A stretch of DNA of 64,000 bases from Lachnospiraceae bacterium NK4A144. GTDB taxonomy: Bacteria > Bacillota > Clostridia > Lachnospirales > Lachnospiraceae. This document shows positions 1 to 11,924 of this stretch, piece by piece. The notes below the pieces were generated by a model, which did no database searches, was not told the origin of the DNA, and saw only the letters and a list, made by a program, of their open reading frames with translations. Positions within the stretch are counted from its first letter, which is position 1, and each line of letters starts with the position of its first letter. The stretch covers positions 248,001-312,000 of the forward strand of contig AUJT01000002.1 of the NCBI GenBank assembly GCA_000424365.1, written 5' to 3'. A program made the position numbers and the translations under genes.

Positions 1-797
1 TTTCTATTTGTTTCTTCCAAAATTCGGATAGTATTTTTATCAAATCCGAGTTCTTCTGCTCTCTCTTTTGAAAACGAAGCATCTCCATGAATTTCTGATA
101 ATGACTTTGTCGACGGATATACATCACAAATGATGTGGTCCATTTTTTTGAACATTGCTATTGCCAGTCTATGGTTCCCGTCTATTGGATAATAGTCCTC
201 CATCAGCGACACCGTACAGTTTTTATCATATCCGTTTTTGTCCCAATTTTTCAGGAGTTCGATGTATTTCTTCAATCTCTTTTGAGATGTTTCCACACTA
301 TTGAATATGGATAGTCCTCTTACATATATGTCATATCCATCATCTCTTAATCCATAGTACTGCTCCGCAGCCAGATAACGAAATGCCATTGCATATGTCT
401 TACTGGTTGCTTTCCATATGTCACGAAGTGATATTTCTGCGTTCTTCTCTATAGGCTCCCCCAGCATCAGCTCATACAAAAAAGGGGATACCCATACGTA
501 CTTTGTAAATCCCCTTTCTTTCAATGTATTAATTATCTCATTCTTTATTGACTCATGTACAGCAATACATACTAGCAATCCGTCGTTATCTTTGACCTGA
601 TGCAGTGGCATAACGGGTAATCCATCCACCGTTTTCTTTTCCGGTTCTCCGGATGTTATGAAAAACTCTATGTTGTTTTCTATACCCTTCTCACATACTG
701 CCTTATAGAAACGTTTACCAATAAAGCCCGCTCCATAGATGCCGGCTTTATTTTCGGAGATGAGCTTTATTAACTCTGTAGCATTTTTTATATTCAT
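1..797 (-). CDS. Partial protein: Rossmann-like domain plus ParB-like DGNHR motif (C-terminus off the window)
   Basis: The reading frame is open from the ATG at 797 to the window edge (265 codons), so the C-terminus is missing. Residues 20-27 read YGAGFIGK, a glycine-rich nucleotide-binding loop. The following ~90 residues resemble the small Rossmann-like domain appended to many surface-polysaccharide proteins; the C-terminal part of the protein at 8758-10104 has the same type of domain. Around residue 205 there is PIDGNHRLA, the core of the ParB/sulfiredoxin-like nuclease fold. The rest shows no membrane segment or signal peptide. Function is unknown; the two motifs suggest a nucleotide-binding enzyme, possibly tied to the glycan genes nearby. 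The domain reading is inference from short motifs; the existence of the gene is well supported. Confidence 0.75.
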   Translation of the reverse strand, partial: MNIKNATELIKLISENKAGIYGAGFIGKRFYKAVCEKGIENNIEFFITSGEPEKKTVDGLPVMPLHQVKDNDGLLVCIAVHESIKNEIINTLKERGFTKYVWVSPFLYELMLGEPIEKNAEISLRDIWKATSKTYAMAFRYLAAEQYYGLRDDGYDIYVRGLSIFNSVETSQKRLKKYIELLKNWDKNGYDKNCTVSLMEDYYPIDGNHRLAIAMFKKMDHIICDVYPSTKSLSEIHGDASFSKERAEELGFDKNTIRILEETNR

Positions 798-846
798 AGA
801 AATTAACCTTTTACATACTTATGATTTCCTATATCTAAAAAATTAG

Positions 847-1398
847 TCACCTAACCGAAACAATGCTCTCCAGCAACTTACTCTTTTCCCAATCATCTTT
901 CTCATAAACATATAGCTTGTCATAGTAAAAGCCACGGAGTTTTTCTAATCCCCAAATAGCAAAATCTTCTTTACCCCTTTTTGCCATTGCCAATGCTCTT
1001 TTATCCCGAGCGCCCAGCTTCTTTACACCTCCATTATAAACAAGAACAAATGTCACATTATTACGAACAAAATTCACACTTTTATCCGTTATACCGCTAA
1101 ATAAATATGCACTATCTATTGCCTTTTTCCTGATTTCTTTACACTCAAATTCTCCATCCTTGAATTCTACCAGGCAAAACTTATCCTCTGTATCTGTTTC
1201 ACACAGCGCATCTGCTGAAGCAGCATACTCTTCTGACTTTCCTAAATTATTACAATAATTTGTCTTTGCCTGATCAAAGTCAATCGCAAGCTTTTCACTA
1301 TCAGTCATACATTCATTTAATGCGGTATTCCTTGATATTTCCTTCAGAGATTTTATCGCTCTATTATCTCTAAACTCATCGAAATATTTAAGTCTCAT
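847..1398 (-). CDS. Small partner of the upstream ABC-type ATPase; possible PD-(D/E)xK-like protein
   Basis: A 183-residue soluble protein that I do not recognise by name. Its start overlaps the end of the ATPase gene at 1388-2641 by 11 bases, so the two are translationally coupled. Residues 63-80 carry an Asp followed by a hydrophobic strand ending in E-F-K (VEFKDG, residues 77-82). This is the spacing and context of the D...(D/E)-x-K active site of PD-(D/E)xK nucleases; that is inference from one motif only. The second half (ARDKRALAMAKRG, then FAIWGLEKLRG) is basic and could bind nucleic acid. ATPase plus small nuclease-like partner is the architecture of several phage-defence systems (OLD/Gabija/Septu-like). 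No homology search supports this yet. Confidence 0.7.
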   Translation of the reverse strand: MRLKYFDEFRDNRAIKSLKEISRNTALNECMTDSEKLAIDFDQAKTNYCNNLGKSEEYAASADALCETDTEDKFCLVEFKDGEFECKEIRKKAIDSAYLFSGITDKSVNFVRNNVTFVLVYNGGVKKLGARDKRALAMAKRGKEDFAIWGLEKLRGFYYDKLYVYEKDDWEKSKLLESIVSVR

Positions 1399-2641
1399 CT
1401 AAAATATCCAATTCCTCGCTCACTTTTAAGAATGGTCGTGCCAACTTTGAATATATGCACTCCAAATTTTTACTGATATCTTCTATATTTGTGGTCATGT
1501 CAGTATTTTTTGCCAGAAGATAATATTTTGTTTTATCTGCAACATTATATTTCTTTGTAAAGTACTCAATAAAACTGATAAAATCTGCACTATGAGAACT
1601 TATTACAAAGTTTATTCCCAGCAAATCATGTAATAACACAACAATCTCTGCATAGACAAACATCCCCTCAGGATTTAAGTTTGTTTCCGGTTCATCCAAG
1701 ATCACTATTCCGTTTTCTTCAAGAAACCCCTTCTGCAATAAAGACTTGATAATTACAAATGACTTTATTCCGGTTGAAATATTTACAACAGAAACACTCT
1801 TTTTCAGTCCTTTTTCAGCATATACCATTCCTGATTCAGAATCGTCTTCGAGACTTCCGATTCCAAAATCATCCAACTTTTCATATACTTTTTCAAGTCG
1901 CTTATTTGCAATGACATCATCAACAGCAGAATTGTTTTTATTTTTTACATTAATAATCTTTTCAACCAGGTCATATCTATGACCTAGTCCTCTTCTGTAA
2001 GGTCTATTCCACATATCATCCAAGATATATGGGTCATCAATATACACAACATTCTTTACCAAATTCATTTTTTTGAGTATATCGATTTTTCTATTTTCTT
2101 CCGCTGTATACTGAATTTTTTCATCCTTTATGCATAATTCAATTTCAGATTTTTCATTAGGATAGTTTATATGACCAATCTGGGCACCGAACTCTTCATC
2201 AATATTTCTTGAAACTATTGCCTTTAATATTTCAATATCATCAGTCTCTATTGTTTCAATTATTCTTTTTTTTAATGAATCATCTATATCAGTAGACTCT
2301 TTATGTCCTAGATCATCTACAAACTTATCAATAATTTCATCATTATGACTGTATCTATACAATTCAATCATATCTCTGATAGCAGTCTCTTTTACCCTAA
2401 AAGTACCAACTCCGCGAGTGAGCCAACTACGTGAAAAAAAACTAATCGATCTCAAAATTGAACCAACTCTGTCTTCAAGTATTTTCTCTTCGAAGTCGTG
2501 AAATGAATTAAAAGTACAATACAACACCTTTCCTATCGTACTTTTCCCTGTTCCGTTTTCTCCGCAAAGTACAGTGATTCCATTGATATCTATTTCGTTA
2601 TCACCATGTAATCTACCGATATTCTTCACTCTTAATTTCAT
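1388..2641 (-). CDS. AAA/ABC-type ATPase (OLD/SMC-like), first gene of a two-gene module
   Basis: A 417-residue P-loop ATPase of the ABC/SMC-like AAA class. Walker A is GENGTGKST at residues 27-35. The ABC-signature-like STGIKSF is near residue 290, and Walker B with its catalytic glutamate (GIVILDEPETNLNP) is near 313-326. It is followed by the H-loop ISSHSADF near 350. The long middle region (~60-270), rich in charged and coiled segments, replaces the usual transporter helical domain. There are no membrane segments, so this is not a transporter. Such ATPases power nucleases in OLD-family, Gabija and retron-type defence. The gene overlaps the 183-residue partner downstream, and the pair forms a compact operon. 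The ATPase assignment is secure; a defence role is inferred from architecture and accessory location. Confidence 0.85.
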   Translation of the reverse strand: MKLRVKNIGRLHGDNEIDINGITVLCGENGTGKSTIGKVLYCTFNSFHDFEEKILEDRVGSILRSISFFSRSWLTRGVGTFRVKETAIRDMIELYRYSHNDEIIDKFVDDLGHKESTDIDDSLKKRIIETIETDDIEILKAIVSRNIDEEFGAQIGHINYPNEKSEIELCIKDEKIQYTAEENRKIDILKKMNLVKNVVYIDDPYILDDMWNRPYRRGLGHRYDLVEKIINVKNKNNSAVDDVIANKRLEKVYEKLDDFGIGSLEDDSESGMVYAEKGLKKSVSVVNISTGIKSFVIIKSLLQKGFLEENGIVILDEPETNLNPEGMFVYAEIVVLLHDLLGINFVISSHSADFISFIEYFTKKYNVADKTKYYLLAKNTDMTTNIEDISKNLECIYSKLARPFLKVSEELDILDET

Positions 2642-2739
2642 CTATATTCACCCATAATAATGATATTAAATTCAAAACGCTTTTGATTCCAACATCACTC
2701 TACGTATAAATTGTAATTTTGTAAACTATTTCCAATAAC

Positions 2740-3998
2740 TCACCGCTTCATCAACTCTTCCGCGAGTTTTGCTGCTCTTTCTGAAGCTCGTCCATCACCT
2801 ACGTATCCCAAGTCTTTATTCATCTGCTCTACCGCTGCCAGATACTCATCTTTATCAAAGTCACGTATCTTCGTTTCCATTTCATCGTTATTCTGTGCTA
2901 CAGCGAAGGGAATATTCGCGCTAATATTAGGTGTAACATACTTATTCTCTTTAATTTTGTAAAGTTCAATTATTTTAAAACTCAGGTCGCCTCGGTTTTT
3001 ACGATATTCCTCCAGATCGTCCACATAGAGAAATACCGGAATCCCGTTGCAGCCTGCATCAAATGCCATGCTTGAGTAGTCCGTGATGAGCATATCTGAT
3101 GCTGCAATTACTTCATTTGCTTCGTTCCAATGGCTTACATCGATCACGCCAAGTTCTGATTTCGCAGGATTTTTACCGCGTGCGGCAAGTATCTGGGGAT
3201 GAAGTCTCTCAAACATCACCCATTTTTGCCCAGTCGTTTCTTCCAGTGTTCTTAATACTCTTTGCTTATCGAGAGTTGCCTCTTCTTCATATACGCTTCT
3301 ATTTGTCTTCTGTCCTTTTTCTCGGAATGTCGGAGCATACAGTACTACTTTCGTATCATCAGAGACACCATATGCCTGTTTTACTGTGCGTTTTATCTCT
3401 GACCTGTCTCCGTAGAGGATATCTTCTCGAGCCTGACCTATGACTTTTATGGGACCATCATAAACCAGACCTTTTACAAAGTATTCCTTTGCCCATTTCG
3501 AATCTGTGACTACATAGTCTATGAGATCCGAATCCCTTTTACTAACAAGATGTGCGATTTTTGAGAATCCTTTTCCTCTCCACATACCTATATTTTTAAT
3601 ACCAAGTCCGGCATGCCATGTATTTATATAGTATTGACCCTTTCGCTTCAAAGTTCCAAGTGGTTTTCTGTAGTTATCTATCCAGAGCTTTGACGTTGAG
3701 AGGTAATATGCTCTGTTCCAAAGAGTTTTTTTATATACTCCGGAAACTGCTTTTCCATGTCGTTTACGAGCCAGTATATTTCCAGTCCCGGATTTCTTCG
3801 ATGCATTTCTTCCACGATATATTTAGGATTGCAGGTAAATCCACCGCGTCCCTCAAATGTCACTACCGTCACACGATTTCGCTTTATTGGAAATACTCTA
3901 CACGCCCTATATGCCAGGCTGTGGTAAAATGCTTTTATCTTTCTTTTTTGTATGTATCTGTCTTCGCTAGTCAACCGGAAGTACTCCTTACTCTTCAT
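2740..3998 (-). pseudogene. Frameshifted CDP-glycerol:poly(glycerophosphate) glycerophosphotransferase (TagB/TagF family)
   Basis: Two adjacent open frames together encode one teichoic-acid glycerophosphotransferase of about 420 residues. The first (3998 down to 3678) carries the N-terminal domain (VTFEGRGGFTCNPKYI); the second (from 3651) has the catalytic part, with INTWHAGLGIK, VLYAPTFREKG and the C-terminal ITDYSSMAFD motif. The frames join if one A is added to the A7 run at about 3727-3733. The join region then reads TLWNRAYYLSTSKLWIDNYR, the normal family sequence. Intact enzymes polymerise glycerol- or ribitol-phosphate from CDP-polyols at the membrane face. The break may be true decay, phase variation in the A-run, or a sequencing error. 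ATG at 3998 is preferred over the TTG two codons upstream. LicD and a cytidylyltransferase fusion lie about 10 kb away. Confidence 0.8.
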
Positions 3999-4073
3999 TT
4001 CCAAATCAAGCTATGATGATGAATAAAATGCTCAATATAGTCATTCTCCATTCTCGAATCATCATTACTATTA

Positions 4074-4408
4074 TTGTAACTAAACAAAAATAATTATCTG
4101 ATTCTCTAACGTTTCTTGCGAATTCATCCGTCGCCCAAAAATCATTATCCTCATCTATAAACACTATAGAATCCTTAATCGTAGGAAGCAGTGTCTGCCA
4201 ATCTCGTCCCCCAAGGACTCTGCACTGTTTATCACATTTAAGGTCTATACCGCTTTCCTGCCCAGATTCGTAGTACTCATTTATCATTTCAACAAGGGTT
4301 GTTTTCCCTGTTGCACTATCTCCTCTGATTACAGTGATATTTCTTTTTTACGAAAACTCATATTTTAAAGATGAGTTGGAAATCGTAATGTGGTGAATCC
4401 CTTTCATT
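4074..4408 (-). pseudogene. Truncated remnant of the DUF4869-associated P-loop ATPase
   Basis: This stretch is a degraded copy of the 5' third of the gene at 15042-16007. The first codons (MKGIHHITISNSSLKYEFS) and the P-loop GDSATGKTT are recognisable. The codon after YEFS is TAA, where the intact copy has a sense codon, so the frame is broken before the Walker A motif. Similarity stops abruptly at about base 4074, just after the equivalent of NYFCLVT (about residue 110). The next bases belong to an unrelated sequence running into the glycerophosphotransferase gene. It cannot make a functional ATPase; an internal ATG at 4287 would give only a 93-residue fragment without the P-loop. Confidence 0.85.
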
Positions 4409-4417
4409 CTTTCTCCT

Positions 4418-4858
4418 CTATCTAACGATCATCCCAGCCACCGGAATCAACTCTTCCATGTTATGAATAATCTGATCCGTATTAAGAATCTTTATCGTAA
4501 AATCACCATCTCCGAAATCCATAATATGTCTTAGATTAATAGTCACATCCATCATATTTCCAATTTCTAATAACCATCTTGCACAATTATCGCCACAGGC
4601 AGAAGCATTAAATATCTTATCTGGCTGTTTATAAATACAAATTAATGTCTTCACTCCACCGGATAATTCTCTTGGCGAAATACCGCCCAAAACAGGACTA
4701 TCTATTATTCTCGGACCGAGCACTTCAGATTTATCTACAGCTTTTATCATTTTTTTCGATAATTCATCTGTAATCCATTCATCGGTATAGGTATTCTTAA
4801 AATACCGAGCCGGATTATATATGGATTCCGGCATATCACCGTAATATACTGACAGCAT
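4418..4858 (-). CDS. DUF4869 domain protein (copy 1, ATPase partner lost)
   Basis: A complete 146-residue protein of the DUF4869 family, whose biochemical function is not known. It differs from the copy at 16017-16457 at only a handful of positions. Features shared by both are the start MLSVYYGDM, KSEVLGPRIIDS, LSGGVKTL and CGDNCARW. The start is set by a TTGGAGGTATAGG-type ribosome site kept in both copies. The downstream partner here is a pseudogene, so this copy is an orphan. Near-identity with copy 2 despite partner decay suggests a recent duplication or gene conversion. DUF4869 assignment is from recall of the family sequence pattern. Confidence 0.85.
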   Translation of the reverse strand: MLSVYYGDMPESIYNPARYFKNTYTDEWITDELSKKMIKAVDKSEVLGPRIIDSPVLGGISPRELSGGVKTLICIYKQPDKIFNASACGDNCARWLLEIGNMMDVTINLRHIMDFGDGDFTIKILNTDQIIHNMEELIPVAGMIVR

Positions 4859-5034
4859 CCTATACCTCCAATTTTACGTGCTCTCAATCACAAAGTTGTG
4901 CTGCTTAATTTCCGAGTACACGATTCTAATCACGCGTACCTTTTCATAACAAACAATTCATGAGACAATCCCGCCATCATCTATAGCCTTGTATAAGCTG
5001 CAAAAGCCAATAACCCCAAGATCTATGATTCTCA

Positions 5035-6843
5035 TCACTGACAGTACTTATACAATTTATACTCAAACTGATCCAGCGTATCACATTCTCCACAACTCAG
5101 TTTTTCTCTCACTCCAATCATAACCATAGTTTTAATCTGAAGGTATTTTCTTAGTTTCTTCCAAAATACCCAATCCAAACCAACTGCCCGATAATTAACT
5201 AACGACGGATTAATTCTACTCATCATGTTTTTATATTTTTCTGCATTAGCTTTTTTGTAAAAATACAGTACACCAATCTTTTTCTTCTCTGAATCATCAC
5301 TTTTTCCCTCTTCACATTTAATATTTCCAGTATTATTTCCATTTTTAAATTCCATCAATATCCAAAAAGGCTCCGCCTCTGTTTGGATCGTTGGTAAAAC
5401 TGAATTTATACGAAAATAATTCTCACCTTCTATATTAAAAATACTATTCAAAATAGTAATTTTAGTCTGATCAAAAAACTCAGCGCATGGATTTTCAATA
5501 TTTGCAATATTACCCTTACTACCAGTAAAAAATGAAATTGTGTCCCTAATCACCTTGAAAATATTATCCCAACTATTAAACACAGAAAAAATATTATAAA
5601 AAGCCATTCCATCTTCGGGATATTTTACTATTTGTATTATTTTTAGCTCTTCAAATATATTTTTCGCTATTAGATTTAACGTTGGAAATACATATATAAC
5701 GCTATCACATGAACGCTTTCTAAAGTAAACTATCGTGAAGAAACAATTATCATTTTTTCCATTTGTACAGCCTACATAAATTTCTTCAAATTCATTAATA
5801 TTTCGAAGCCACTTTTTAAATGACATCACACTATCAAACAAAACAAATATAATCTTATCGTTTATATTATTATATCTCGAAACATTTCTATTAAAATCAA
5901 AGTCTTCACAAGATACTATGATATATTTGCTATCTCTTAATACTTCTTTTATATCATTTGCACTCGCAATCTTATAAACACCACTTTCTTCATGCTGTAA
6001 ATAACATTTGCCTTGATTTGTTCCAAAATCGAAAATGCCAATAGCTCCGCCAGGCACATTCAATTTATTTGTTTTCTCTAACTGTAATGCACCAAGGTCA
6101 AATACAACTATTTTTTCTAATAACAAATTGTTCAGATTAACACTTTTATAATCTTTACCAGCCTTAAATCCCAGTTCTAATTTTTCTGCCAAACTACCAA
6201 AATGATGTTTTGCTATTTCAATCAACTCATCCTGCTCAATATATTTCGAACACTCAAAACACTTTTGAAATTTAAAAACCCATTCTAATCTATTATTTAT
6301 TTCATGTTCTAGTTGCTTGAAATCAATTCCCTCACAACAGTTATCCAATCTTTGCCAAAATTCATTACCCTGTACATCTATATTTAAAACAGAAACACAA
6401 AAACTTTCTATCTTTCTACGTCGCTCCTCTATTGTCTCTTCAGTATCACTCCAATTTTTCTCAGCAATCATCAAATATGTTTTATATTCATCTGTTTTCT
6501 GCCTGTATACTTCCTGTCGCTTTTCACAACCGTAATTTTCCTCTATCCACAGCAATTCCATACTATTTGCAAAAACTTCTTGAACCGTCCTTGTGGCCTC
6601 ATACAAAACATCCATTTTTTTGCATAATAATAAATAATAATTTTCATCGCGTTCAAAATGTTTTGCCATTTCGATCAAGTTCATAACAAGTCCAAGATTT
6701 GTATTTACAGCCAAATATGCATGATACATTTCATGTATACATGTAGATGATTCCGAGCCATATTCCATGTTCAAACTTGGCGAAATATAGATTTTCCCTC
6801 CCCATTCAAATGAAAATGCTCCAAGATTAGTATGTTTAAGCAA
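5035..6843 (-). CDS. Large unknown protein with a HExxH zinc-protease-like motif, upstream partner lies next to a TIR gene
   Basis: A 602-residue protein without signal peptide or clear membrane segment. Near the N-terminus is CIHEMYHAYLAV (HExxH at residues 37-41), followed about 48 residues later by TVQEVFANS (Glu89). This is the HExxH...E layout of gluzincin-type zinc proteases. The rest (about 200-602) is unrecognised, strongly AT-rich and Asn/Lys/Ile-rich compared with the housekeeping genes in this window. It contains many short Phe/Ile/Asn strands and could be a sensor or target-recognition region. It starts 27 bases after the TIR gene on the same strand, so the two are probably co-transcribed. 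The motif is seen directly; metal binding and proteolysis are inferred. I see no named family. Confidence 0.75.
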   Translation of the reverse strand: MLKHTNLGAFSFEWGGKIYISPSLNMEYGSESSTCIHEMYHAYLAVNTNLGLVMNLIEMAKHFERDENYYLLLCKKMDVLYEATRTVQEVFANSMELLWIEENYGCEKRQEVYRQKTDEYKTYLMIAEKNWSDTEETIEERRRKIESFCVSVLNIDVQGNEFWQRLDNCCEGIDFKQLEHEINNRLEWVFKFQKCFECSKYIEQDELIEIAKHHFGSLAEKLELGFKAGKDYKSVNLNNLLLEKIVVFDLGALQLEKTNKLNVPGGAIGIFDFGTNQGKCYLQHEESGVYKIASANDIKEVLRDSKYIIVSCEDFDFNRNVSRYNNINDKIIFVLFDSVMSFKKWLRNINEFEEIYVGCTNGKNDNCFFTIVYFRKRSCDSVIYVFPTLNLIAKNIFEELKIIQIVKYPEDGMAFYNIFSVFNSWDNIFKVIRDTISFFTGSKGNIANIENPCAEFFDQTKITILNSIFNIEGENYFRINSVLPTIQTEAEPFWILMEFKNGNNTGNIKCEEGKSDDSEKKKIGVLYFYKKANAEKYKNMMSRINPSLVNYRAVGLDWVFWKKLRKYLQIKTMVMIGVREKLSCGECDTLDQFEYKLYKYCQ

Positions 6844-6870
6844 AATTTATCTCCATAAAATATAATCAAC

Positions 6871-7344
6871 TCATAGATGCTTTTTTAATTCTGCATAAAA
6901 TCTCTCTGTTTCTGTCATTCCACAATCAATCTTTTGAAAATATCCTCTAGACCTTTCATACAACACCTTTTTATTGAATTGTTTTCTAATCTCAACATAT
7001 TTCAATACATCTTGATCACATTTTAATCTAGGCCAATATGAAAGATATTCTGGAAGTATTTCATCGCTAACCAAATAATTGACAATTGACATTTCCTTTT
7101 CGGTCGCCATTCCTATTTCAAATGGTACCCACCATGAATGCTTTGTATTGCTCGAAAGAATAACTATAATTTCTGAACACTCACGCAATTTTTGACGTAT
7201 ATGTTTTGTCAATTCCTCCCCATTATTCGTTAACATATTATCCAACACATCTAAATAAGCATCTACTCCCACAGATTCAAACACTTTCATAACACGCCGT
7301 GCAACACTTTCATCTTCTTTTTTGTGTGAAATAAAAATCCTCAT
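6871..7344 (-). CDS. TIR-domain protein
   Basis: A 157-residue protein that is almost entirely a TIR domain. It begins with the canonical first strand MRIFISHKKEDE, has a helix ARRVMKVFESVG, and the strand EIIVILSSN. It then shows SWWVPFEIGMA, where Glu76 occupies the position of the catalytic glutamate of NAD-cleaving TIR enzymes. ATG at 7344 is chosen because GGGGA lies at a usable distance; an ATG four codons upstream has its purine run too close. Bacterial stand-alone TIR proteins commonly act in anti-phage immunity (NAD depletion or signal-molecule synthesis). It lies between a small membrane protein and a HExxH protein on the same strand. Domain assignment is strong; the immune role is inferred from family and context. 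Confidence 0.85.
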   Translation of the reverse strand: MRIFISHKKEDESVARRVMKVFESVGVDAYLDVLDNMLTNNGEELTKHIRQKLRECSEIIVILSSNTKHSWWVPFEIGMATEKEMSIVNYLVSDEILPEYLSYWPRLKCDQDVLKYVEIRKQFNKKVLYERSRGYFQKIDCGMTETERFYAELKKHL

Positions 7345-7476
7345 AATTTCAATCATCCCCTATTATGTGCTAAATAATTACAAACTATTATCCTTTTGTA
7401 CTAGCCAAAATCTGACTTTAGACTAAATTTTTTCATGCCTGCACCCGCAAAGAATTGAATATATATATAACACAAT

Positions 7477-7929
7477 TTATTTCTCTAACAACGTACATAC
7501 AAAAATAGACACATATATAATCAAAACACACACCGGAACAAGTCTCTCCAAATGAGAAATTGGCCAGTACTTGAATCTATTTTTTCCATAATCCAGTTTT
7601 TCCCATTCATAAGCATATAAATTTAACGGTAATTCTTTTTCAATTTCATGTATAATCTCAAATTTTCCAGCGTTTAGGAGCTTATAGCTTTGAAGCAAAT
7701 ATATCCAAACATAGCAAAGTAGACATCCCAAAACAACGATAACCCACCAATATTTCTCAACGTTAAATCCATTTATACCAACAATGCCCAACACAACAGT
7801 ATGAACAGTTACAAAAAATGAATTTACATTTCCCCTTCGTTCACTTATCTTATCAGCCATTTCAACATAAAGTTTATATTGCTCTAACATTGCTTCCGAA
7901 ATATCTTTTTTATTGTTTATTAATTCCAT
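7477..7929 (-). CDS. Small integral membrane protein next to TIR gene (RipA-like)
   Basis: A 150-residue protein with an N-terminal amphipathic helix (residues 10-35) and three hydrophobic stretches near residues 37-55, 60-80 and 125-147. Its layout and the motif YKLYVEMADKISERRG match a group of small bacterial membrane proteins often encoded beside TIR genes, labelled RipA-family octameric membrane proteins in databases. That name is recalled, not verified. It lies 132 bases upstream of the TIR gene on the same strand. A plausible job is the membrane anchor, sensor or pore partner of the TIR protein; this is inference. Confidence 0.75.
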   Translation of the reverse strand: MELINNKKDISEAMLEQYKLYVEMADKISERRGNVNSFFVTVHTVVLGIVGINGFNVEKYWWVIVVLGCLLCYVWIYLLQSYKLLNAGKFEIIHEIEKELPLNLYAYEWEKLDYGKNRFKYWPISHLERLVPVCVLIIYVSIFVCTLLEK

Positions 7930-8003
7930 TTCTTAACCATTTCCATTTGATCTATCACACCTAGCACAACCAATGTCACTAACTTACGGAAAGAACTTAA
8001 TCG

Positions 8004-8942: not shown

Positions 8943-10104
8943 TTTCTTTGTCTTCCTCTGTAAACCATTCAGCATCAAAATAATCCACACTTGCAATGCC
9001 CATATCATGTATTTCTTTAACTATATCACGATATGCAGCAACGCACACGAGTACATGGCACTCATCCGCAGGTATTTTTCGTATCTCTTCCGGATTCTTT
9101 ATCTCCACTCCGTCAAATGTCTCTCCCCAACGGGACTCGTTCTTATCTATGATAAAGAACGGCTTGTGCCGCTGCCCAAATTTCTGCATATAGGTATGCA
9201 TGAAAGGACCTGCGCCAAAAGTGATCAGCTTCTTATTCTCATACGTCTCAAGTATCTCATCCCAATGAAATGACTTGTCCCATTCCGACGCTATACTATA
9301 TGCCATGTTGCTCATGGTATCAATGAGTTCTGTCGGTATACTTCCATACAGCCCGTCTATATCGAGAAAAAGTGCTCCGTCAAAGCCTATCCTGTGAAGC
9401 TCTCTTATAACCAGTCTCCAGTCTGTGAGGAGGATTCCACGTCCAACCGTAAATGTATAGGGCATTTGGTGCATATCATGGATGCCGTCATTGTCATTTG
9501 CGTGTAAAAACATCAGATCAGATCCGAGCTCAGTGATCATATCTACTACGTTTGATGAAAAGAGCATTGCATGCCCCACATTAAATGCCGCTGCAAAATG
9601 TGATTCACTGCGCTTTTCGATATTCGATGCACTTTGTGCTCTTTCTGCCTGACGTAGTTTATTCAATGCCCGCTTAAAATCAGCTGCATCGCAAAGGCCG
9701 TTTCGTCTGACGCGTGTATCTCCGATTTTTATATAATAGCCATTTTCGAGGACTATACGACACTCAGACTTGAGGATCACTTCCATATGATCCATTAGTT
9801 TTGCAATAACGCTGTCTACATCCTGCAATCCCTCTGTTTCTATGAGGACATACGGGATAGCAAGCCTCTCCGCGTCATGCAATACATCCCTAATACTGTC
9901 AATTTTGTCACCGGTAAGGTTTATACAACAAATTTTTGAACGTTGCGTCTCATTATTTGTATCGTTAACTGACACATCATCAGCCAATTTCTGTATCAGT
10001 TCTTCCGCATTTTTTAGCTCATCGTACCGGATTTCCAGATTTGAAAATCCGGCTCTTGTCACCGCTTCTATCAGATTACTCCGTGTACTTATTCCGGTAA
10101 TCAT
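8758..10104 (-). CDS. TIM-barrel isomerase-like domain fused to a small nucleotide-binding domain; long 3' overlap
   Basis: A 448-residue protein. Residues ~1-265 form an AP-endonuclease-2-like TIM barrel, with AFNVGHAML and LHANDNDGIHDMHQMPY matching the downstream paralogue. Several catalytic acids are replaced: the paralogue's CLDTGH is FNVGH here, so this barrel may be inactive or altered. Residues ~285-385 form a Rossmann-like unit starting LITFGAGPFMHTY. The last ~60 residues are Arg/Lys/Trp-rich and lie inside the next gene in another frame (overlap 8758-8942). This tail looks like read-through after a lost stop or small frameshift near 8945; a natural end would fall close to the ATGCTGA at the next start. 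ATG at 10104, after GGGAG, is the chosen start. Function unknown. Confidence 0.7.
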   Translation of the reverse strand: MITGISTRSNLIEAVTRAGFSNLEIRYDELKNAEELIQKLADDVSVNDTNNETQRSKICCINLTGDKIDSIRDVLHDAERLAIPYVLIETEGLQDVDSVIAKLMDHMEVILKSECRIVLENGYYIKIGDTRVRRNGLCDAADFKRALNKLRQAERAQSASNIEKRSESHFAAAFNVGHAMLFSSNVVDMITELGSDLMFLHANDNDGIHDMHQMPYTFTVGRGILLTDWRLVIRELHRIGFDGALFLDIDGLYGSIPTELIDTMSNMAYSIASEWDKSFHWDEILETYENKKLITFGAGPFMHTYMQKFGQRHKPFFIIDKNESRWGETFDGVEIKNPEEIRKIPADECHVLVCVAAYRDIVKEIHDMGIASVDYFDAEWFTEEDKENAETWCPDKGDIRTGTLKKWYRYDKGGRLRLRRFQPGRIYHELRNIWRKAKSFLRRIAGRT

Positions 10105-10163
10105 CAAGTTTCTTTTCTCCCTTTCACATACCTGTCAGGTACGTTTGTAATTATGTCTGTTAC

Positions 10164-11924
10164 TCAATTTTGTGCAAATCTTGTCATGTTTTTCTCTACG
10201 AGACTTGCTTCGATTCCCTGTACATACAGTGGTTCCTGTCCGCCCCACGCGCGAACTGCATGATCACCACCTCTGTACCGCTCCGGAACTTCTGTATCCA
10301 ATGCATAGCATGATGGATGAAGAGCCTCTGCTTTTGCCTCATCTGCACCTTTAATACAGTCGGACAATCTGCTCGCAAGCATTCCTGTCTTCGCTGTAGG
10401 ATCGAGCTCCTTCATGTACTTTATTGATTCCATAAGGAATGATGACCATACGATATACTTTTCTACGCCATGCTTCCGAACAATATCGAGAGCTTTTTCT
10501 TCCAATCCCGGATATCTATAGACTGAAGTCTTAAGCTCGATATTTAAGAGGAGACCATTTTTCTCCATATATGGTTTCAGTAAATCCAGCAACTCATCAA
10601 GAGTCGGTATGGTCGTGTGACTTCCGTCTCTCTTCATGATCTTCGTGCTCTTTAGTTCGGATAACGTATAATCTCTTAAATACCCTTTGTGGTCTGTCAC
10701 GCGATCCAGTGTCTCATCATGGAACACAACTACTTCACCATCTTTTGAGAGCTGTACATCTGTCTCAATCCCGGCAAGATCAGCTCCAAGTTCCGCAGCA
10801 GCCCTAAAAGCCTCAAGAGTATTTTCCGGATACTGCATGGACATACCTCTGTGTGCCCACACCTTCACCTCAGGGAGTTCCTGTAACTCTTCCTCAACTT
10901 TTCTGCGCCTTTCCGCATTTTCCTTCAGAAATAAATCCATTACAGAAGCTCTGGCAATCGTTTCTTTTTTCAGTACCGCTCTCTCAGCTGCAGATGACTC
11001 ATCATCTCTTGTGATACTTCTCACATGACGTACAAACGCTTCGGCTTCGTACTGCAGTCCTGAGCCTTCATAAACGGCATCGTGTGATTCATTTCGATTT
11101 GGATCCTCATATCTCACATCAAAATGCTTTGTAAGCCACCAGGGTGCCGGTCCCAAGATATATCCATTCGTCCCGGAAATAAGTATCTGTCCCTCGCTCT
11201 TTACTCCAAGTCCGCACTTGGCTGTGGCAAATCTACCGTCTCCGTAATCAAAGACCGCTTTTGTATAGAGATCCAGACCGTTTTCTGCATAGGTGGAATA
11301 AAAATGAACATCCTTATAATCAGTACCATATAAGCGGAATATAGGAAGCATGTTATAACTTCCGAGTTCCAAGAAGCTTCCGCCGTACTTTACGTCTGTG
11401 AGCTCACGCGTATTTCTACCCTCAAGTTTTGTAAACGCAGCCTCTATATCACGCACAGCGCCTATACGACCTGAGTGCGCTTCCATCATCATTTTCTGAA
11501 AGCCTTCACAATATCCGGTTTTCAGTGCTTCGAGAAGGATGAGATTGTTTTCCTCCGCCAGTTTATACAGTTCTTCTGCATCGCTCTTTGAAAAGCTCAT
11601 AGGTTTCTCACAAAGAACATGTTTACAAGCCTCAAGCGCAGTTCTCGCATAATCCACATGGGTTTCATGAGGGGATGCGATATATACGGCATCGACTTCC
11701 GACAGAAAATCTGCCATATCATCAAACGCCTTATTTAGCCCCTGCGCCTCGGCAAATCGTTCTGCACTACTCCTTCTCACATTGTAGACCGCCGTTATCT
11801 CGAGAAAACGTACATTTCCAACTGACTGTACAAATCTTCCTGCTATCCGTCCTGTTCCGATCACTCCCAGACGGATCTTTTTACCTGTTACTTTATCAAC
11901 TACTCTTGTAAAAAAATCCTTCAT
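10164..11924 (-). CDS. Gfo/Idh/MocA oxidoreductase fused to glycerophosphodiester phosphodiesterase
   Basis: A 586-residue two-enzyme fusion. Residues ~15-340 are a Gfo/Idh/MocA NAD(P)-dependent oxidoreductase: nucleotide loop GVIGTGRIAGRF, IASPHETH, and the catalytic-lysine segment CEKPMS. Residues ~355-586 are a GDPD TIM barrel: HRGMSMQYPENTLEAF, ETDVQLSKDGEVVVFHD and LNIELKTS supply the expected His, Glu, Asp and metal ligands. GDPDs split glycerophosphodiesters to glycerol-3-phosphate and an alcohol; the oxidoreductase would act on a sugar or polyol. ATG at 11924 is preceded by AAAGGA, which favours it over an upstream in-frame start. Its oxidoreductase half closely resembles the proteins at 12000-13346 and 18411-19439. 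Fusion is seen directly; joint metabolism of a glycerophosphoryl polymer is inferred. Confidence 0.85.
   Translation of the reverse strand: MKDFFTRVVDKVTGKKIRLGVIGTGRIAGRFVQSVGNVRFLEITAVYNVRRSSAERFAEAQGLNKAFDDMADFLSEVDAVYIASPHETHVDYARTALEACKHVLCEKPMSFSKSDAEELYKLAEENNLILLEALKTGYCEGFQKMMMEAHSGRIGAVRDIEAAFTKLEGRNTRELTDVKYGGSFLELGSYNMLPIFRLYGTDYKDVHFYSTYAENGLDLYTKAVFDYGDGRFATAKCGLGVKSEGQILISGTNGYILGPAPWWLTKHFDVRYEDPNRNESHDAVYEGSGLQYEAEAFVRHVRSITRDDESSAAERAVLKKETIARASVMDLFLKENAERRRKVEEELQELPEVKVWAHRGMSMQYPENTLEAFRAAAELGADLAGIETDVQLSKDGEVVVFHDETLDRVTDHKGYLRDYTLSELKSTKIMKRDGSHTTIPTLDELLDLLKPYMEKNGLLLNIELKTSVYRYPGLEEKALDIVRKHGVEKYIVWSSFLMESIKYMKELDPTAKTGMLASRLSDCIKGADEAKAEALHPSCYALDTEVPERYRGGDHAVRAWGGQEPLYVQGIEASLVEKNMTRFAQN

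Follow-up and report, generated by a model that had tools for sequence, protein, structure and literature searches.

Three adjacent genes at the left end of a 64,000-nt stretch of the genome of Lachnospiraceae bacterium NK4A144 (hereafter “the window”; positions 248,001–312,000 of its source contig, in a genome of 4.09 Mb and 68 contigs) encode a membrane protein of the 8xMP family, a TIR protein of the stand-alone type and a protein of 602 aa that carries an HExxH motif. Comparison with related loci leads us to favour, tentatively and well short of certainty, the view that these genes form one TIR-signalling defence operon which might have descended from a TIR-caspase ancestor similar to type IV Thoeris, its protease having been replaced by a putative metalloprotease. 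This view is favoured because the HExxH gene follows the TIR gene at a distance of only 27 bp, the candidate catalytic glutamate of the TIR protein is retained, and one locus of Anaerobium acetethylicum (L011) contains the closest relative of both the TIR and the 8xMP protein. The immune interpretation is thereby better grounded than the sequence alone had allowed, with the metalloprotease step as its weak link.

The genes lie in an AT-rich block (34.2% G+C at positions 1–8000 compared to 43.7% at 8001–64000) and are themselves even poorer in G+C (30–32%). All three reading frames are intact and located on the minus strand, in agreement with the original prediction, which had described three same-strand genes in an AT-rich accessory block. 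The 8xMP gene (7477..7929, 150 aa) is separated by 120 bp from the TIR gene (6871..7356, 161 aa), which is followed by the HExxH gene (5035..6843). The latter exhibits a TTG start codon at 6843, with a GGAG sequence at 6854–6851 and an in-frame stop codon just 5' of the start. The three genes would presumably be co-transcribed. No terminator-like site was detected between 4300 and 8300, and the 12 promoter-like sites of this region provide no evidence for a promoter, as such sites were more frequent in shuffled sequences (mean of 21.1).

The TIR protein and its caspase-associated subfamily

The window TIR protein matches the Pfam families TIR_2 (E 8.9e-12) and ThsB_TIR (E 1.4e-9). Its nearest kin constitute a narrow subfamily (alignment A3) in which the stretch S..T..S.WVP.E.G.A is invariant and the C-terminus extended. 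The window protein is assigned to this subfamily by a profile match (E 2.9e-68, with the window sequence being among the profile's 10), by the invariant stretch and by its position in the tree. Glu80 (codon at 7117..7119), located in the WVPFEIG motif, is invariant in 10/10 aligned members and is a candidate for the catalytic glutamate of TIR NADases. The earlier description of a stand-alone TIR domain with a catalytic-type glutamate is thus borne out.

Twenty other loci of this subfamily were collected: two were reached through 8xMP (L011 and L019), two came from a search of 392 genomes of the order and one from a profile search of 398 genomes of the phylum, while 13 originate from plasmids and two from viral contigs. 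The plasmid loci represent 13 of 28 records (H31–H34, H36, H37, and H41–H47); those omitted were H35 and H38–H40, whose identity and coverage equalled those of records taken, the short matches H48–H50, and eight unlisted records. Six-frame profile searches identified a caspase-like protein in 17 of the 20 loci, in 14 of them on the strand of the TIR gene, and a second, ThsB-like TIR in 18. Within 1.5 kb, a caspase was found at 15/20 subfamily loci and at 0/23 control loci (L098–L120). These controls were weaker TIR matches outside the subfamily, all from the one order of the window; they cover 1.5 kb of flank and mostly represent TIR domains within longer proteins. Four of the 20 loci (L011, L126, L127, and L132) had seeded the caspase profile; without them, a caspase was present in 13/16 loci within the fetched flank and in 11/16 within 1.5 kb. 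When the two loci found through 8xMP are set aside, both the caspase and the ThsB-like TIR are present in 16/18. The ThsB profile also matched 13/23 control loci, mostly in the TIR itself and with a best value of 7.8e-9, whereas the second TIR of the 18 subfamily loci matched at 2e-17 or better. The stretches fetched for L019, L130, and L140 yielded no caspase, the last of these loci being a distant member of the subfamily (profile E 3.4e-25) on a very long branch.

Two plasmid loci combine the TIR gene with a different set of proteases and represent candidate systems in their own right. In L135 (1212–5510), the TIR gene stands directly behind genes for a subtilase (S8) and a CHAT protein, with a caspase upstream on the same strand. 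In L136 (175–5498), subtilase and CHAT genes likewise lie directly before the TIR gene, and a caspase and a ThsB-like TIR are encoded on the other strand. These two arrangements suggest that the protease partner of the subfamily can vary. In three further plasmids (L121, L138, and L139), TIR-caspase loci carry a small uncharacterized gene and a metallophosphoesterase gene right after the caspase gene.

No caspase was detected in the window or elsewhere in its genome: the caspase profile yielded no match in its 64 kb (E ≤ 1), and Peptidase_C14 (PF00656) has no match in the genome (E ≤ 0.001). Likewise, no second ThsB-like TIR was detected in the window (E ≤ 1), the window TIR itself being the sole match; the only other ThsB_TIR match of the genome is a 576-aa TIR protein on contig C27 (L142, 1474–3204). 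The tree joins the window TIR to that of L011 (support 93/88), inside a group of six Bacillota TIRs (86/90). Four of the six are located beside a caspase gene; the window and, in the stretch seen, L019 are not.

In type IV Thoeris (Rousset et al., 2025), as summarized in PMC12847820, the TIR protein produces N7-cADPR; this signal turns on a caspase-like protease, and proteins of the cell are degraded by it. The window resembles the system described there in that a TIR gene is clustered with a protease-like gene, and in that caspase loci contain TIRs of the same subfamily. It differs in that HExxH and 8xMP proteins stand in for the caspase and the second, ThsB-like TIR. As the search for a caspase was negative, the window is not considered a member of type IV Thoeris. 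The closest relative is L011, in which genes for a caspase, a subfamily TIR, 8xMP and a ThsB-like TIR are arranged in a row: this one cluster contains the closest TIR (54–55%) and, among the 80 relatives kept (see below), the closest 8xMP protein (53%). However, the window carries the HExxH protein where L011 has a caspase and a ThsB-like TIR, and the order of the genes differs.

8xMP as a partner of TIR genes

The membrane protein matches 8xMP (PF24838) with an E-value of 8.8e-39 and 132.9 bits against a curated cut-off of 30, and hydropathy analysis revealed three hydrophobic regions. Proteins of this kind are named RipA family octameric membrane proteins by NCBI. Across 74 aligned sequences (alignment A5), the invariant residues include R32, E97, E108, W109, and E128. 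8xMP is the only Pfam family above its cut-off, and no macro domain was found. The likeness to type II Thoeris, whose membrane protein is a TM-macro ThsA (PMC12847820), is limited to the pairing of a membrane protein and a TIR gene. The SIR2-SLOG ThsA of type I Thoeris is absent from the eight window proteins encoded at 850–7929 (Pfam).

A scan of genome contigs with the 8xMP alignment identified 151 relatives, the best 80 of which were kept and span many bacterial groups and some archaeal records. Neighbours were counted at 78 of 85 loci (seven lacked a called 8xMP ORF) and for 100 of 106 neighbouring proteins (six of more than 700 aa were dropped). A ThsB_TIR match was present in 56 of these 100 immediate same-strand neighbours (57/101 including the window TIR), and an iterated profile revealed a TIR-like immediate neighbour at 55/78 loci. 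8xMP can therefore be regarded as a frequent companion of TIR genes independently of the window, and the original assignment of the third gene to a kind of membrane protein often found beside TIR genes is upheld. The window shares with these pairs that a TIR gene directly adjoins 8xMP on the same strand; unlike them, it has a TIR of another, TIR_2-type subfamily and no ThsB-like gene. Across many groups of bacteria, and in archaeal records, the survey thus presents 8xMP as a recurrent direct partner of ThsB-like TIR genes. A description of this pair was not found in the one open-access library searched, although the type IV Thoeris paper may cover an accessory TIR or 8xMP.

HExxH or HQxxH motifs were listed for 12 ORFs near other 8xMP genes. 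Four loci with motifs that look peptidase-like by eye (L012, L041, L089, and L094) were considered as sources of HExxH relatives and rejected, as they are absent from the matches of the window protein (E ≤ 10). One of them, from an Oscillospiraceae metagenome-assembled genome (L012, 3239–6423), shows an overlap of the 8xMP gene with a radical SAM gene, which is preceded by a gene for a 414-aa protein with an HEIIH motif; this protein has no Pfam match and is not similar to the window HExxH protein. Outside the strain, the co-occurrence envisaged by the original prediction was only partly recovered. A subfamily TIR occurs with 8xMP in L011 and L019, whereas the sequences searched contained no other instance of the complete set of three. 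In L019 (2559–6411, Formimonas warabiya), a transposase-like gene stands between 8xMP and the genes for a TIR, a ThsB-like TIR and an uncharacterized 181-aa protein.

The HExxH protein and its C-terminal stretch

The 602-aa protein contains a single HExxH motif, HEMYH, at residues 37–41 (6721..6735), and Glu89 (codon at 6577..6579, in QEVFAN) lies 48 residues past the last histidine, exactly as had been predicted. Glu89 is a candidate third zinc ligand; HExxH followed by a downstream glutamate corresponds to the layout of gluzincin metallopeptidases, whereas a match to a known family of such enzymes is lacking. Neither the whole protein nor its residues 1–135 or 1–202 produced a match above the curated cut-offs of Pfam or NCBIfam, and no match was obtained in PADLOC, PHROGs or, at the level of sequence, the PDB. 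Sub-threshold Pfam matches to TBPIP_C (E 0.014) and PTSIIB_sorb (E 0.027) were not usable. The earlier reading of a TIR protein coupled to a putative protease and a membrane component therefore stands in part: it gains from the nature of the membrane protein and from the protease partners of the TIR subfamily (caspase-like in 17/20 loci, subtilase and CHAT in two), and the HExxH protein did not receive the corresponding family match. A single-sequence structure model (pLDDT 35.3, pTM 0.22) proposes, with low confidence, a beta hairpin followed by two long helices carrying the motifs, and decides nothing given its pLDDT of 35.

Relatives of the protein were found neither among the 47 other genomes of the genus, nor by pattern scans of genome contigs and viral contigs, nor by tblastn searches of plasmids and phages (E ≤ 0.01). 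The N-terminal 135 aa yielded one plasmid match with an E-value of 2. In 396 other genomes of the family, the sole match (E 6.9e-6; phmmer 1.5e-6) was located in the C-terminus of an apparent tyrosine recombinase (G112). This candidate was rejected and the match treated as chance, because the stretch alone, in a search of 61 genomes, hit only a Lon-like protease (0.002) besides itself; a CxxC helical element may nevertheless be common to both proteins. A search of 291 genomes of the class yielded four weak matches, of which one held up, a 247-aa Mrr-type nuclease (L145). As far as can be judged from its sequence, the 602-aa protein is thus a near-orphan, with its C-terminal stretch as the only part recognizably common to other proteins, and can be termed a putative metalloprotease.

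This stretch comprises residues 480–602 (5038..5406), the first 60 of which are recognizably common to Mrr-type nucleases. Residues 483–538 are 41% identical over 56 residues to the C-terminus of L145 (BLASTP), and a profile built from three nuclease C-termini finds residues 480–539 at 30 bits. The likeness is restricted to this part: in place of HExxH, the N-terminus of L145 is Mrr_cat, and no TIR was seen near the nuclease genes in the stretches read. A fourth protein with the stretch, encoded on a viral contig (L155), has an N-terminus that, by eye, resembles those of the other nucleases. The occurrence of one stretch on two kinds of N-terminus would fit a layout of enzyme plus regulatory module. 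The four nucleases sharing this unnamed stretch (GEPFW...G.) are found in plasmids and viral contigs (L145, L149, L150, and L155), and the L145 protein has an identical counterpart predicted on a viral contig (L153). In addition, a protein encoded on a Spirosoma plasmid (L152, 3785–5098) shows a partial Mrr-type nuclease match and is annotated as an ImmA/IrrE metallo-endopeptidase, possibly combining a nuclease and an HExxH protease in one chain. In L151, a secreted-looking caspase-like ORF (9269–10273; ...FSGHG...DSCHSG) was noticed by eye approximately 2 kb from an Mrr-type nuclease gene.

In other conflict systems of bacteria, metallopeptidase domains have been reported as rare components of effectors (PMC7159879, PMC8195603). 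A metallopeptidase associated with a stand-alone TIR protein was not described in the one open-access library searched.

Origin of the gene set and neighbouring genes

In the simplest history, inferred from one genome, an L011-like system would have lost its caspase and ThsB genes, and an HExxH gene would have come to follow the TIR gene. In the resulting defence operon, phage infection would lead the TIR protein to convert NAD+ into an ADP-ribose-type signal. The HExxH protein, as a putative metalloprotease acting in the caspase's place, would be activated by this signal and would then degrade cell proteins, with its C-terminal part possibly serving as a regulatory module. 8xMP would act at the membrane, where it would be another effector or provide the assembly site of the complex.

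Several observations weigh against this model. The main reason for caution is the single occurrence of the three-gene set, which was seen in one genome only. Moreover, the genomes, plasmids, phages and viral contigs searched contained no protein related to the HExxH protein over its whole length, just 36 residues precede HEMYH, which is judged short for a zincin, and no TIR gene was detected near the nucleases bearing the C-terminal stretch (L145 by profile within 3.1 kb, L149 and L150 by annotation, L151 and L155 by reading of ORFs). The caspase loci of the subfamily nearly always contain a second TIR, which is missing from the window, and the signal maker could be either of the two. The end branch of the window TIR is long (1.01 vs. 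0.27 for L011), which could also indicate decay. Finally, 8xMP occurs in only 2/20 subfamily loci, and even this count overstates the link between TIR and 8xMP, as both loci (L011 and L019) were found via 8xMP. Together with the rarity of caspases among 8xMP neighbours (a caspase-family match in just 2/101 scanned proteins), this leads to the conclusion that 8xMP is not core to the TIR-caspase layout and may be an independent partner.

A serious rival, itself doubtful, is therefore that the TIR and 8xMP genes are the remnant of a partly lost, L011-like TIR-caspase system, next to which an accessory gene without any relation to it, the HExxH gene, has landed. The long TIR branch, the missing caspase and second TIR, the lack of relatives of the HExxH protein and the presence of other interrupted-looking genes in the block (2740–4004 and 4006–4287) are all in accordance with this rival. 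However, decay would not readily account for three intact reading frames and a retained TIR glutamate, nor an unrelated arrival for an HExxH gene on the same strand immediately behind the TIR gene. In a second, unlikely alternative, the HExxH protein would be a genuine partner but not the executioner: it would sense infection or control TIR and 8xMP, perhaps by proteolysis of one of them, while killing would result from NAD+ loss through the TIR protein or from membrane damage through 8xMP. 8xMP, as the commoner TIR partner, could indeed be an effector alone, and most of the large HExxH protein lies outside the motif region; on the other hand, the third partner of the nearest TIR relatives is a protease-family gene, the caspase, in a position usually taken as that of the effector. 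That HEMYH is a chance match and the protein no metalloenzyme appears improbable. In its favour, HExxH arises in 0.875% of 100,000 shuffles of the protein, no metallopeptidase profile matches and the one recognizable homology is C-terminal. Against it, HExxH followed by ExxA[ND] after 15–75 residues, as in the window protein with its glutamate in ExxAN at helix spacing, occurs in only 0.017% of them (a figure that serves as a guide only, since the pattern was chosen after seeing the sequence), and the hairpin and long helices of the low-confidence model would fit a metalloenzyme while proving nothing.

The defence operon with an exchanged protease is thus retained as the preferred interpretation. 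Its more far-reaching and rather speculative form holds that a zinc metalloprotease executes TIR-signalled immunity and that the TIR subfamily serves interchangeable proteases (caspase, subtilase, CHAT, and here a zincin), with 8xMP as a membrane component. If true, TIR-made signals would command unrelated protease families beyond the caspases, and the TIR subfamily would mark where further protease partners may be sought.

Further genes of the AT-rich block are located downstream of the HExxH gene on the minus strand. A DUF4869 gene (E 2.3e-58) and a 93-aa ORF that, from its sequence, resembles an interrupted P-loop ATPase occupy positions 4006–4858. These are followed by a CDP-glycerol glycerophosphotransferase-like gene in two ORFs (2740–4004), which is probably interrupted: the part at 2740–3651 matches Glyphos_transf, while 3678–4004 resembles the front part. 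At 847–2641, a gene for a 417-aa AAA_21-type ATPase (PADLOC HEC-02A, E 2.8e-22; phrog_14430, E 3.2e-31) overlaps a gene for a 183-aa partner (phrog_25533, E 2.6e-6), and these two genes give the AT-rich block another candidate defence pair.

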